DNA of 64,000 nucleotides from Candidatus Saccharimonadota bacterium (GTDB lineage Bacteria > Patescibacteriota > Saccharimonadia > Saccharimonadales > UBA4665): positions 62,001 through 126,000 of the forward strand of contig JAQGGT010000004.1 in assembly GCA_028289245.1 (NCBI GenBank), read 5' to 3'. Position numbers and translations under genes: made by a program. Positions 54,497 through 58,459 of this stretch are shown piece by piece (positions within the stretch are counted from its first letter, which is position 1; the number at the start of each line of letters is the position of its first letter). Under the pieces are notes generated by a model. It had not been told where the DNA came from. It was given only the letters and a program-made list of their open reading frames with translations, and did no database searches.

Positions 54497-56872
54497 CTAT
54501 TTGTCGAGCTGCTGTAGCTTGTACTGGGTGTAGCGCTCGGCGGCGAGGCGTGTCAGCTTGGCGTCTTCGCCGGAATTTACAAACCGCATGGCTTCAGCGA
54601 GCTGTGGGTGGACTTCGGCAAGTTTTTCGTGCATTTGCAGCACTAATTTGCGATAGCCAGGGTGACCCTGCGGGCTAGTCCGCAACTCGTGTAAATGGAA
54701 GGCTTCGCGGGCATTGTACGTGACCTTCCAGCGCATTTTGTGGCCGAGCAGCGTGGCGTACTGTGCCTCGAGGGCGTAACCGGATTGCTGTAACAGACTA
54801 TAGAGTTTGAGACTAATCTCGAAGCACGCTTCGAACTGATCGGTGAGGTTGGCTTCTTCGATGAGCTTAGGCGTTTCGTAGCCATAGCGTGGCGTCAGCT
54901 GTTGCCATTCGAGGTCATCGACCATCCGGTGGCGCTGCAAGTCGCGGAAAATACCATAATCGCATACCAAATCCCAGCTGTAGTGGGCTTTTTCGAGGGC
55001 TCGGCCTGGCCGATGCCGGCGGTTGAGGCGTTCACCCATATACGCAGCAAAGACTTCGGTTTTTTTATCGTAAGACCAGCTGGCAACCTCGGTCTCAATG
55101 GCTTCGAGTGGTAAATTGCTGTGCTCGTAGAGCATGTCAGGAACCAGATTGAGCTCGTTGCGCGGCCAGTAGTCAGTTAAAGTGACGGCTTCGGAAGTAG
55201 CGGCGTAGTTGTCGGGCAGGAGGTCGGTGGCTAGTTTTTGAACGGCCGTATGCGTATTTGAGCGATAGGCGATCAGGGCGCCGCCGCGCTCTGGGTTGTC
55301 GGCGCGCTCTAGGAAGGTCGGCATGACTTTGCGGGCTTCGTCGAGTACCCGTTGGCCGGTTATCCGTGCTTCTGGTAAGTCATCGCTGAGGAGATGCATA
55401 ATCAGGCTCTCCAACGCCTGACCAGAGGCAAAAATGCCAACAGTTGAGGTGGTAGCCACTGGTAATACCGGCCGGACAGCGTCGCAAGCCTGGGCACGGA
55501 TAGCGCCCTTCCAGGCGCCGTCGCGTTCGGCCTCTGGGGTATCCGAAGCGTTCTGTAAGTGCAGCGTCAGGGCGTGGACCATCGCTGAGTAGAGATCAAA
55601 CATGGTGTTCATGGCTTCGATGTACTGCTTGCGGATGGATGGCTTGAAGTGCTTGGGTATATGGAAGCGGTAGTGGCCCTGGGCATCCTTCTGGTCGAAA
55701 TAAATATAGCGTGTGGACTGCTCAAGGTACGCGGCGAGGCGACCCCACTCTAATTTCTTGGTAAGCAAGTTACTGGCATTCTCGACGACCAGGTGTTGGC
55801 CGACTAGCTGCTGCACCGAATCGTCGCCGTAAGCGGTGATAACGCGCTGAATGAGCTTTTCATCTTTACCGAGATTAGCAGCAAATTCGTCGAGAATAGT
55901 AACCCGCATGTCGTCACCGCGGCGGCTAAGGCGAGCCATGGCGGCAGCAGCAGTGAGACCTTCGAGCTTAGTAGTGGCGTACACGTCGCCATCAACATTG
56001 GTAATATGCTCGCGCAGCCAGGCTTTGCCGGCGGCAGTGGGACGCATGCCGTACTTGGTTTTTTCGACTAACGGCTGTTCATCGGCTGGCTGAACCTCTT
56101 GAGAGGTGGCGGCAACTTCGGTTTCGGCGACTGCTGTTACCGGCAGCTCGGGACTGATCGGTGGCGCATAGGGCGCGGCTTTCTGCTCAATTATTTCTTT
56201 GATGGCAGTCGGCTCGCTGGGGTGCTGCCCGTCGCGGCTGGTGAGCTCGGTGCTGACCAGCTGCCAGATCTGTTCACCGACTTCTTCGGGGGTGGTATTC
56301 GCAAACACCACCGGGAACTGGCGCTGCTTGGCCTCCCAGAGGTAGCCGGCCCGGACGCGCTCCAAAAAGCCTTCGTCCAGGTTGTCGAAGCGCTCGCCGT
56401 TGTATCGGTCACGGACGCGCTCTTTGAGGGTAGTGGCTGGGGCGTCCATGACGATGCATAGATCGGGCTCATTTTCGCCGACGGCGAACTTGATGATATT
56501 AGTGATGGCCTGGTAATCCGGCACATCACCGCGGCCGTAGTACTGGATGGCCAGCGTAGTTAGATAGTTACGGTCGACTAAGCAAATAATGCCCTGCTCG
56601 ACGCTGGCCCGGATAACTTCGAGCGACTGCGAGCGCGCAGCGTTGTAGAGTAATACCTCGGTCCGGGTATTCATCGGGTAGCGGGGATCTTGGGTGAGCT
56701 GACGGATAGCCCGGGCGGTAAGGTCGCTCTGGCTGTCCGGCTCGCGCAAGGTGCGTACTGGATAACCGGCGGCTTGCAAGCGGTCGGCGAGCATGTTCAA
56801 CTGAGTGGTCTTGCCGACCCCCTCTGGTCCTTCGATGACGATGTAACGGCCGCGGCTGTTTGCGCTATTCAT
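54497..56872 (-). CDS. Fused thymidylate kinase and duplicated flavin-dependent thymidylate synthase (Tmk-ThyX-ThyX)
   Basis: One uninterrupted 791-residue ORF. Residues 8-205 are thymidylate kinase (dTMP to dTDP): P-loop EGPEGVGKTT (14-23), VDRNYLTTLAIQYYG, and a lid region RVRDRYNGERFD. After a linker (about 205-265), residues 270-560 are a ThyX-like half without the RHR signature (LEQSTRYIYF stands in its place). Residues about 565-790 are a second ThyX half with DLQRHRMVDD (RHR near 647-649) and NAREAFHLHELR. ThyX uses FAD, NADPH and methylene-THF to make dTMP from dUMP. The halves probably complement each other. Overlaps dcd by eight bases. Confidence 0.9.
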   Translation of the reverse strand: MNSANSRGRYIVIEGPEGVGKTTQLNMLADRLQAAGYPVRTLREPDSQSDLTARAIRQLTQDPRYPMNTRTEVLLYNAARSQSLEVIRASVEQGIICLVDRNYLTTLAIQYYGRGDVPDYQAITNIIKFAVGENEPDLCIVMDAPATTLKERVRDRYNGERFDNLDEGFLERVRAGYLWEAKQRQFPVVFANTTPEEVGEQIWQLVSTELTSRDGQHPSEPTAIKEIIEQKAAPYAPPISPELPVTAVAETEVAATSQEVQPADEQPLVEKTKYGMRPTAAGKAWLREHITNVDGDVYATTKLEGLTAAAAMARLSRRGDDMRVTILDEFAANLGKDEKLIQRVITAYGDDSVQQLVGQHLVVENASNLLTKKLEWGRLAAYLEQSTRYIYFDQKDAQGHYRFHIPKHFKPSIRKQYIEAMNTMFDLYSAMVHALTLHLQNASDTPEAERDGAWKGAIRAQACDAVRPVLPVATTSTVGIFASGQALESLIMHLLSDDLPEARITGQRVLDEARKVMPTFLERADNPERGGALIAYRSNTHTAVQKLATDLLPDNYAATSEAVTLTDYWPRNELNLVPDMLYEHSNLPLEAIETEVASWSYDKKTEVFAAYMGERLNRRHRPGRALEKAHYSWDLVCDYGIFRDLQRHRMVDDLEWQQLTPRYGYETPKLIEEANLTDQFEACFEISLKLYSLLQQSGYALEAQYATLLGHKMRWKVTYNAREAFHLHELRTSPQGHPGYRKLVLQMHEKLAEVHPQLAEAMRFVNSGEDAKLTRLAAERYTQYKLQQLDK

Positions 56873-57578
56873 AGGAAAGACCCTCGACTTTCTTTGGTAA
56901 CCGACGCTGATCCTTATAGGCTTTAGGAAGCATCATATCGGGCGACCAGGTCTTTATAATTGTCTCTAGGTCGGTGCCTTGCTGATATTTGCCGCTGAAC
57001 TGGTTGTCGCGGCCAGCACCGTAGTCGCCTTCAACTTCGCCGGTCTCGTGAAAAACAATTTGCGCAAAGCGCTCGCCGACCGGCAGCAGAACTGTTTCGC
57101 GTTCGTTGAGGTTATAAATCTCAAGGGTTAGACGATTGATGTAGCCCGGATCGATCCAACCGGCATCAAAACAGACGGCGATGCCGTTGCGACCCCAGCT
57201 GGAGCGGCTCCGGACTTCGCAGGCGCCCGGTGGCCGGATACCGAAGAACTCGTGGGTATGTGCCAAAATACGCTCCCGTGGTTTAAGGCTAATGACGGGA
57301 TGATCGAGCGGAATATTGGCCACCGGCTTAAAACCGTTGAGGGCGCACCACTCGCCGTGCGGCATGGCCTTGTAGGGGCCATCGAAGTAGCGCTCCACGT
57401 CTTCTTTATCGAACGGATTGTAGATGGTTCGATCCTGCATTTTTTCGATGCGGTAGTAATAATAGCCGAGCGTAACGTCAAGACTGGCATGACTGACGTG
57501 CTCCGGCGCGAATGGGTGACAGACGATATGGTCATCCTGGATAGCCTGACGAATCTGGACATTGCTATAAACAGCCAC
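56865..57578 (-). CDS. dcd: dCTP deaminase family protein
   Basis: A 237-residue trimeric dUTPase-fold enzyme. Family blocks: HASLDVTLGYYYY, RERILAHTHEFFGI, EVRSRSSWGRNGI (nucleotide loop, usual R-S-S), DAGWIDPGYINRLTLEIYN (catalytic glutamate in TLE), PVGERFAQIVFHE and a C-terminal GKYQQGTD. It turns dCTP to dUTP, or to dUMP if it is bifunctional; no dUTPase gene is in the window. GTG start with GGAGGAG seven bases before it. First gene of the operon feeding dUMP to the downstream ThyX. Confidence 0.9.
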   Translation of the reverse strand: MAVYSNVQIRQAIQDDHIVCHPFAPEHVSHASLDVTLGYYYYRIEKMQDRTIYNPFDKEDVERYFDGPYKAMPHGEWCALNGFKPVANIPLDHPVISLKPRERILAHTHEFFGIRPPGACEVRSRSSWGRNGIAVCFDAGWIDPGYINRLTLEIYNLNERETVLLPVGERFAQIVFHETGEVEGDYGAGRDNQFSGKYQQGTDLETIIKTWSPDMMLPKAYKDQRRLPKKVEGLSYE

Positions 57579-57691: not shown

Positions 57692-58459
57692 TCAGCGATA
57701 GTCGCTGCCGCGATATTCACTGATAGTGTTGGCGGCAAGAATGTCGCCGTAGAGATTTTGGGCCAGCGCTTGAAGTTCGGGTAAGCCTCGATTGTTGATG
57801 ACTCGAATATCAGGTACGATCTCGCTGACATGGCGCTCGGTGACGTCACTGCGGTCGGCGTCGGGCAAGTCACGCTCAATGATGCAGACTACGCCACCTT
57901 GCGATTTGATGTAATCAGCCTCGGCGGGTGTTCGTACTGCAGTTAGAGCCACCAGGGTGATGTCATCACCAAATTCATGGATCCGACGCATCAGCTCTTT
58001 GTACCACAACAGCGGGTCGATACGGTGCAAGAAAAAACCGCCGATCCACTGCAGAAGCGGCCGGTAGTCATCTTTATTGCGGCTGGATATCGGCGTGTTG
58101 ATGAGTGCTGGGTTTTCGGCGACGCGGTCATAGTATGCAAACAATTTGGCATACCACTCCGGCTCGGCAATCATCTCGGCCTGGTCGAGCTGGACGTCGC
58201 GGAGGTCCAACTCCTGAAAGGTCATTGGCTGCAAGTAAGCCATGAAGGCGATCAGCGCGTCGTTGGTATTACTGACGAGCTGGGCGCGCGGGGCTTGAAA
58301 GTCAAAGCCGGTCAGCAAGGCATTAAAATGTTCGGCCAATTCGACGACCACGGCTGAGGTTTCGAGGTGCAGTGTTTGGCTGGCGTTGATATCACACAAC
58401 ATCTCGGCCAATGTGGTCTTGCCGCTGCCAATTTGGCCGCCGATGGCTATAATCTTCAT
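57692..58459 (-). CDS. P-loop nucleotide kinase-like protein
   Basis: A 255-residue protein with Walker A AIGGQIGSGKTTLAEML at 4-20, a middle helical part and VALTAVRTPAEADYIKSQGG then VVCIIERDLP near 170-200, as seen in dephospho-CoA kinase and AAA_18/deoxynucleotide monophosphate kinase-like families. Ends with a D-R-S-DVTERHVSEIV lid-like segment. A (deoxy)nucleotide kinase role would fit the dTTP genes beside it, but the substrate is not proven. Starts 32 bases after the rplA terminator. Confidence 0.75.
   Translation of the reverse strand: MKIIAIGGQIGSGKTTLAEMLCDINASQTLHLETSAVVVELAEHFNALLTGFDFQAPRAQLVSNTNDALIAFMAYLQPMTFQELDLRDVQLDQAEMIAEPEWYAKLFAYYDRVAENPALINTPISSRNKDDYRPLLQWIGGFFLHRIDPLLWYKELMRRIHEFGDDITLVALTAVRTPAEADYIKSQGGVVCIIERDLPDADRSDVTERHVSEIVPDIRVINNRGLPELQALAQNLYGDILAANTISEYRGSDYR

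Follow-up and report, generated by a model that had tools for sequence, protein, structure and literature searches.

How does a single reading frame that joins a thymidylate kinase to two ThyX-like segments divide the work of making dTMP and phosphorylating it? The frame lies on the minus strand of the 64,000-nt window (the whole stretch of DNA that was analysed). A sequence-only reading had proposed that one ORF contains a thymidylate kinase (Tmk) domain and two ThyX-like halves and that its start overlaps dcd, and both proposals hold. The ATG of the fusion lies inside dcd, with an overlap of 8 nt, and the order on the minus strand is dNMP-kinase-like gene, dcd, 791-aa fusion, the first of these belonging to the same gene run as the other two (Table 1). 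Translation of the fusion is probably coupled to dcd.

Table 1. Positions of the fused gene, its parts and its neighbours in the window.
Feature	Position	Strand	Basis
Fused gene, thymidylate kinase + tandem (two-half) ThyX, 791 aa	54497..56872	-	single open frame
Kinase domain, residues 7-213	56234..56854	-	PF02223 and TIGR00041 scores, fold match
Linker, residues 214-268	56069..56233	-	disorder predicted at 213-263
ThyX half 1, residues 270-535	55268..56065	-	Thy1 58.6 bits and alignment to 3gwc
S386-T-R388-Y389 (inside YLEQSTRY), half-1 dUMP-binding and lid motif	55706..55717	-	residue counts
ThyX half 2, residues 536-791	54500..55267	-	Thy1 61.1 bits and residue counts
RHR motif, residues 647-649, half 2	54926..54934	-	sequence and residue counts
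dCTP deaminase-like gene dcd, 237 aa, GTG start	56865..57578	-	DCD 111.9 bits (Pfam)
dNMP-kinase-like gene upstream of dcd	57692..58459	-	PF21448, score exactly equal to the cut-off

Two kinds of kinase are found fused to the same ThyX among relatives: the standard bacterial kind (type 1), to which the window's kinase belongs, and a kind that matches PRK07933 (type 2). Most type-1 fusions overlap dcd by 8 nt, and most type-2 fusions by 4 nt. The window's kinase matches Thymidylate_kin (PF02223) at residues 13-202 with 97.6 bits (Pfam cut-off, 27) and the NCBIfam Tmk model TIGR00041 with 100.3 bits (cut-off, 83.25), passing both curated cut-offs, and it carries the P-loop GPEGVGKTT and a D100-R101 motif. 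The P-loop, the DR motif, Q110, R80 (the dTMP-side arginine) and the LID arginines R152 and R156 are conserved across the 28 type-1 rows. In an AlphaFold model of the 791-aa protein (one chain, built from 44 relatives; mean pLDDT 83, pTM 0.64), the kinase part superposes on Tmk 4s35 with Z 25.4 and 1.9 Å over 192 residues (VIA-align), and the matches listed by a structure search with the full model are all taken up by this domain. By cut-offs and fold, then, residues 7-213 resemble bacterial Tmk, from which they differ in being fused to ThyX. The linker is predicted to be disordered, with one short helix at 224-230 in the model, and its length varies among relatives. The helix (window 56183-56203) follows a motif, roughly P-x-S-I-K-E-I-I-x-Q-K, that is repeated in most long type-1 linkers and absent from type-2 linkers.

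Thy1 (PF02511) matches the remainder of the chain in two stretches, with 117.8 bits in total against a Pfam cut-off of 24.8, and the genome-level search likewise gave two separate matches in the fusion frame (profile positions 11-191 and 40-191). Each half exceeds the cut-off alone, which disposes of the earlier worry that the first half might not be ThyX at all. The NCBIfam thyX equivalog TIGR02170 scores 51.1 bits and does not reach its cut-off of 87.9, and for this reason the protein does not count as a canonical single-domain ThyX. Profile-profile comparison of half 1 with half 2 gave no usable alignment (35 columns), so it is the match of both halves to Thy1, rather than their mutual similarity, that speaks for duplication. 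Searches of PDB profiles with the halves yielded marginal ThyX matches (half 1 to 3gwc, E 0.077; half 2 to 4fzb, E 0.001).

Each active site of M. tuberculosis ThyX takes R95, H96, R97 and R199 from subunit A, S71 and R190 from subunit B, and R87, S105, R107 and Y108 from subunit C (PMC6514825). We mapped these residues through the half-1 alignment to 3gwc, itself marginal, and counted them in 68 tandem ThyX sequences (44 fused, 24 unfused). Half 1 of the window's protein retains S352, E384, S386, R388, Y389 and R467; among the 68, all have S71, E/Q103, S105, R107, Y108 and R467 in this half. At the position of RHR, the window's half 1 has W376-G377-R378, and Q485 and L494 take the places of R190 and R199. 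Across the set, the half-1 counterpart of R95 is R in one sequence and W or D in most, that of H96 is mostly G, and that of R199 is never R, being mostly L or M. In half 2, R95 is present in 68/68, H96 in 67/68, R97 in 66/68 and R199 in 67 with one gap; the window's protein has R722 for R190 and R731 for R199, in addition to RHR. The sequence-only reading was right that RHR (647-649) occurs only in the second half, but it took LEQSTRY (383-389) for the first-half counterpart, and this segment in fact matches the downstream S105-x-R107-Y108, the true counterpart being the WGR triplet.

A full active-site set is found within neither half. Half 1 is without R95, H96, R190 and R199, and half 2 is without S71 and R87 and has an altered dUMP motif; jointly, the halves hold every listed residue except R87. 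All 68 sequences combine two Thy1 domains per chain, an invariant SxRY in half 1, and RHR and R199 only in half 2, which is how we define tandem ThyX here. Judged by these residues, the halves are complementary, half 1 representing the dUMP side and half 2 contributing RHR, R190 and R199, and the earlier suggestion of a pseudo-dimer with specialised halves thus gains support from the complementary residues of all 68 proteins. Since unfused tandem ThyX is widespread, duplication is not special to the kinase fusion.

On balance, we think it likely that the product is a bifunctional enzyme, a tandem ThyX with split roles in a pseudo-tetramer plus a flexibly linked thymidylate kinase, made as a unit coupled to dcd. 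The C-terminal 520 residues would form the tandem ThyX, with the shared active-site residues divided between its unlike halves. Half 1 would act as subunit C does in the M. tuberculosis enzyme and supply the dUMP-side residues. Half 2 would take role A, with RHR serving FAD and R199 as the second arginine for dUMP, and role B through R190. From this fit of half 2 to roles A and B and of half 1 to role C, we infer that two chains would assemble as a pseudo-tetramer in which two of the four active sites are complete and the other two dead. The N-terminal kinase, on its flexible linker, would phosphorylate the dTMP made by the ThyX part, and together with dcd a single unit would encode the steps leading from dCTP through dUMP to dTDP. 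That both parts are active and that the steps follow this order is presumed here. The role map is imperfect: half 1 has N368 where subunit C has R87, and for S71 of subunit B half 2 offers no clear equivalent. Moreover, half 2 of the fused lineage still has T660-P-R662-Y663, which may mean that its dUMP side is alive.

Could half 2 be catalytic by itself, using RHR and its own TPRY dUMP motif, with half 1 serving as a structural pseudo-subunit? R662 and Y/F663 are retained in half 2 of 44/44 fused copies, as this would predict. However, three extra residues separate RHR from TPRY, R662 is retained in only 1/25 unfused tandem ThyX, most of which have S-x-R-Y replaced (e.g. GAGLG in Miltoncostaea), and the S, R and Y of half 1 are retained in 68/68. 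These data argue against catalysis by half 2 alone, which we regard as improbable.

A survey of relatives, suggested earlier, shows that the fusion recurs. Thy1 exceeds its cut-off in 53/60 genomes, mostly as two matches per frame of about 750-820 aa, and almost all of these 53 have a double-ThyX ORF, usually of 737-829 aa including the kinase. Among 245 genomes sampled from the class, frames of 737-829 aa turn up in many families of the order, and tandem-ThyX frames in other orders of the class measure 541-641 aa; among 240 genomes sampled from the phylum, frames of fusion length occur only within the order. An assembly join or frame error, once raised as a possible objection, is refuted: the frame is open, dozens of independent genomes from many families share the architecture, and the overlap with dcd is conserved.

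Kinase-free tandem ThyX occurs in other Patescibacteria and in Actinomycetota, Bacteroidota and Bacillota, the split-residue genes of the last three being plasmid-borne, and in a phage; the same residue split appears in phage Tunturi_5 and one viral contig. Variant forms were also seen. In G166, which also has ThyA, a compact 388-aa tandem ThyX (L117:2329-3495), which reads SARY in its first half and QRHR in its second, represents a second form of the split. ThyX seems circularly permuted at L116:2104-2988 (G254) and G052:C6:13472-14215, where a GHxSPLEH segment follows FFALR..AQPEIR. A fused gene at L142 (G408) has two in-frame stops inside half 1, reflecting either an error or a pseudogene.

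Within the order, unfused arrangements include dcd-tmk-thyX (G051 and G054) and a tmk that adjoins thyX (G059). The ThyX tree places every fused copy in a single group, which includes the unfused G054; together with the unfused neighbours, the tree suggests that neighbouring genes probably fused. On the kinase tree, the two types are deeply separated (SH-aLRT 99), type 1 splits into the window's group and a G047/G049/G125 group, and several fused lineages are required. A single type-2 clade on the ThyX tree is not rejected (AU p 0.174). We conclude that at least two kinase lineages, and probably three, sit on the same ThyX. The best model for type 2 is PRK07933 (123.3 bits, under its cut-off of 193), which we take to be a mycobacterial-type dTMP kinase. 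Fused in relatives, this type is elsewhere in the phylum a separate gene, often beside tandem thyX (L130, with a 28-nt overlap; L131), and hence may be the older partner.

In relatives, the kinase gene upstream of dcd (e.g. L073:2676-3329) is either a DNMK-like homologue or a second Tmk, the two never occurring together in the stretches examined, and such a gene is present in about 25 loci. The fused kinase might thus be a passenger in many genomes, kept by descent, with the other kinase acting on dTMP. G053 (L101:250-2586) illustrates the point: its ThyX is intact, its fused kinase is degenerate and without the DR motif, and two other Tmk genes are present in the genome. Several genomes encode a further Tmk or dNMP kinase, and the window's genome has one weak extra PF02223 match (30.6 bits). 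Against a passenger role, kinase motifs are retained in nearly all fused copies (E14, G18, K21, R80, R101, Q110), genome searches found no other PF02223 match over the cut-off in about 25/60 genomes, and different kinase lineages occupy the same place. We consider it unlikely that the fused kinase is a passenger of this kind in many genomes.

The fusion could serve tight channelling, with the kinase docking on ThyX and receiving dTMP directly. Two consecutive steps do lie in one chain, and the short conserved helix of long type-1 linkers could be a docking element. But the linker is predicted to be disordered and varies in length, the helix is absent from type-2 fusions, and distant kinase lineages are found in the same place. 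Disorder and differing kinase types suggest that the tether is loose and exchangeable and not a conserved channel, and we give direct transfer little credence. In the split-role enzyme that we favour, the tether probably serves to keep the two parts close together and in fixed stoichiometry, and not to form a sealed channel.

Does the ThyX part work as the thymidylate synthase? It is the only one found in the window's genome and in most relatives, ThyA matches being present in 7/60. In the class sample of 245 genomes, Thy1 occurs in 88 and ThyA in 140, and both occur together in only 8. Six decayed fusions were examined (L059:4024-5844, L109:1506-3332, L110:105-1901, L147:1450-3102, L156:1456-3402 and L064:1351-3642), and they look like several independent events. 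Four of these genomes (G008, G033, G037, G432) have ThyA nearby on the same contig and two (G011, G385) have a separate intact tandem ThyX; decay in such company supports ThyX as the working thymidylate synthase elsewhere. ThyA coexists with a full-length fusion in G012 and G015. RHR, NAR and R731 are gone from the decayed tails, as is much of half 1, and yet the frame is still open and Q657, P661, Y705, G710, H711, R714 and H755-P756 are retained in 6/6, with R662 in 5/6. Kinase activity alone is an insufficient reason for keeping the tail, because the fused kinase motifs also look degraded in G033 and G011 and the P-loop is lost in G037. These cases hint at a second, non-catalytic role of the tail, as a scaffold or nucleotide-sensing partner, although such a role is less likely than not. 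The idea that residues specific to the fusion lineage are preferentially retained in decayed copies found no support (7/21 versus 8/27 columns; Fisher p 1.0); R662 alone stands out, and it was chosen post hoc.

The remaining step depends on dcd. Its product scores 93.2 against the dCTP deaminase equivalog cut-off of 92.8 (NCBIfam), just over, gives weak matches to PDB chains of the bifunctional type, and is the sole dUTPase-superfamily match in the window's genome. No separate dUTPase, ThyA or FolA was found in this genome, which is 97% complete, making the absences less than certain; such a gene set fits a genome that relies on ThyX and whose Dcd forms dUMP. Provided that the Dcd-like protein has this putative activity, two genes would span the path from deamination to first phosphorylation.

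The fusion shares its Pfam family with ThyX/FDTS (PF02511; M. tuberculosis 3gwc, T. maritima ThyX), and RHR, S-x-R-Y and NAR..R are all found somewhere in the chain. Known ThyX is a single domain of about 220-260 aa that forms a homotetramer with four equal sites, whereas the fusion has two unlike halves with the residues divided between them. Unfused tandem ThyX from Miltoncostaea (WP_217924789.1), Parabacteroides (WP_009276148.1) and Euzebya (WP_164711104.1) has the same two-half layout and residue split but no kinase, and is annotated merely as "FAD-dependent thymidylate synthase". Neighbouring steps of thymidylate synthesis are also fused in DHFR-TS of protists and in the thymidine kinase-thymidylate kinase chimera of white spot virus; the combinations of enzymes in these are unrelated to the kinase-ThyX fusion. 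We found no description of a tandem or kinase-fused ThyX in the literature searched, the coverage of which excludes most subscription journals. The component families are known, and it is the divided ThyX and its fusion to a kinase that we did not find described.

To our knowledge, humans lack ThyX. In known ThyX, each active site is built from three identical subunits (PMC6514825), and hence residues that act from one particular subunit cannot be mutated separately. Divided roles in tandem ThyX would make each role alterable alone within one gene, and thus directly testable. The kinase fusion offers a natural test of tethering, with relatives in which the genes are unfused, the kinase is of another kind or one part is dead. 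These findings bear on dTTP synthesis in those Saccharibacteria whose genomes are near 1 Mb.
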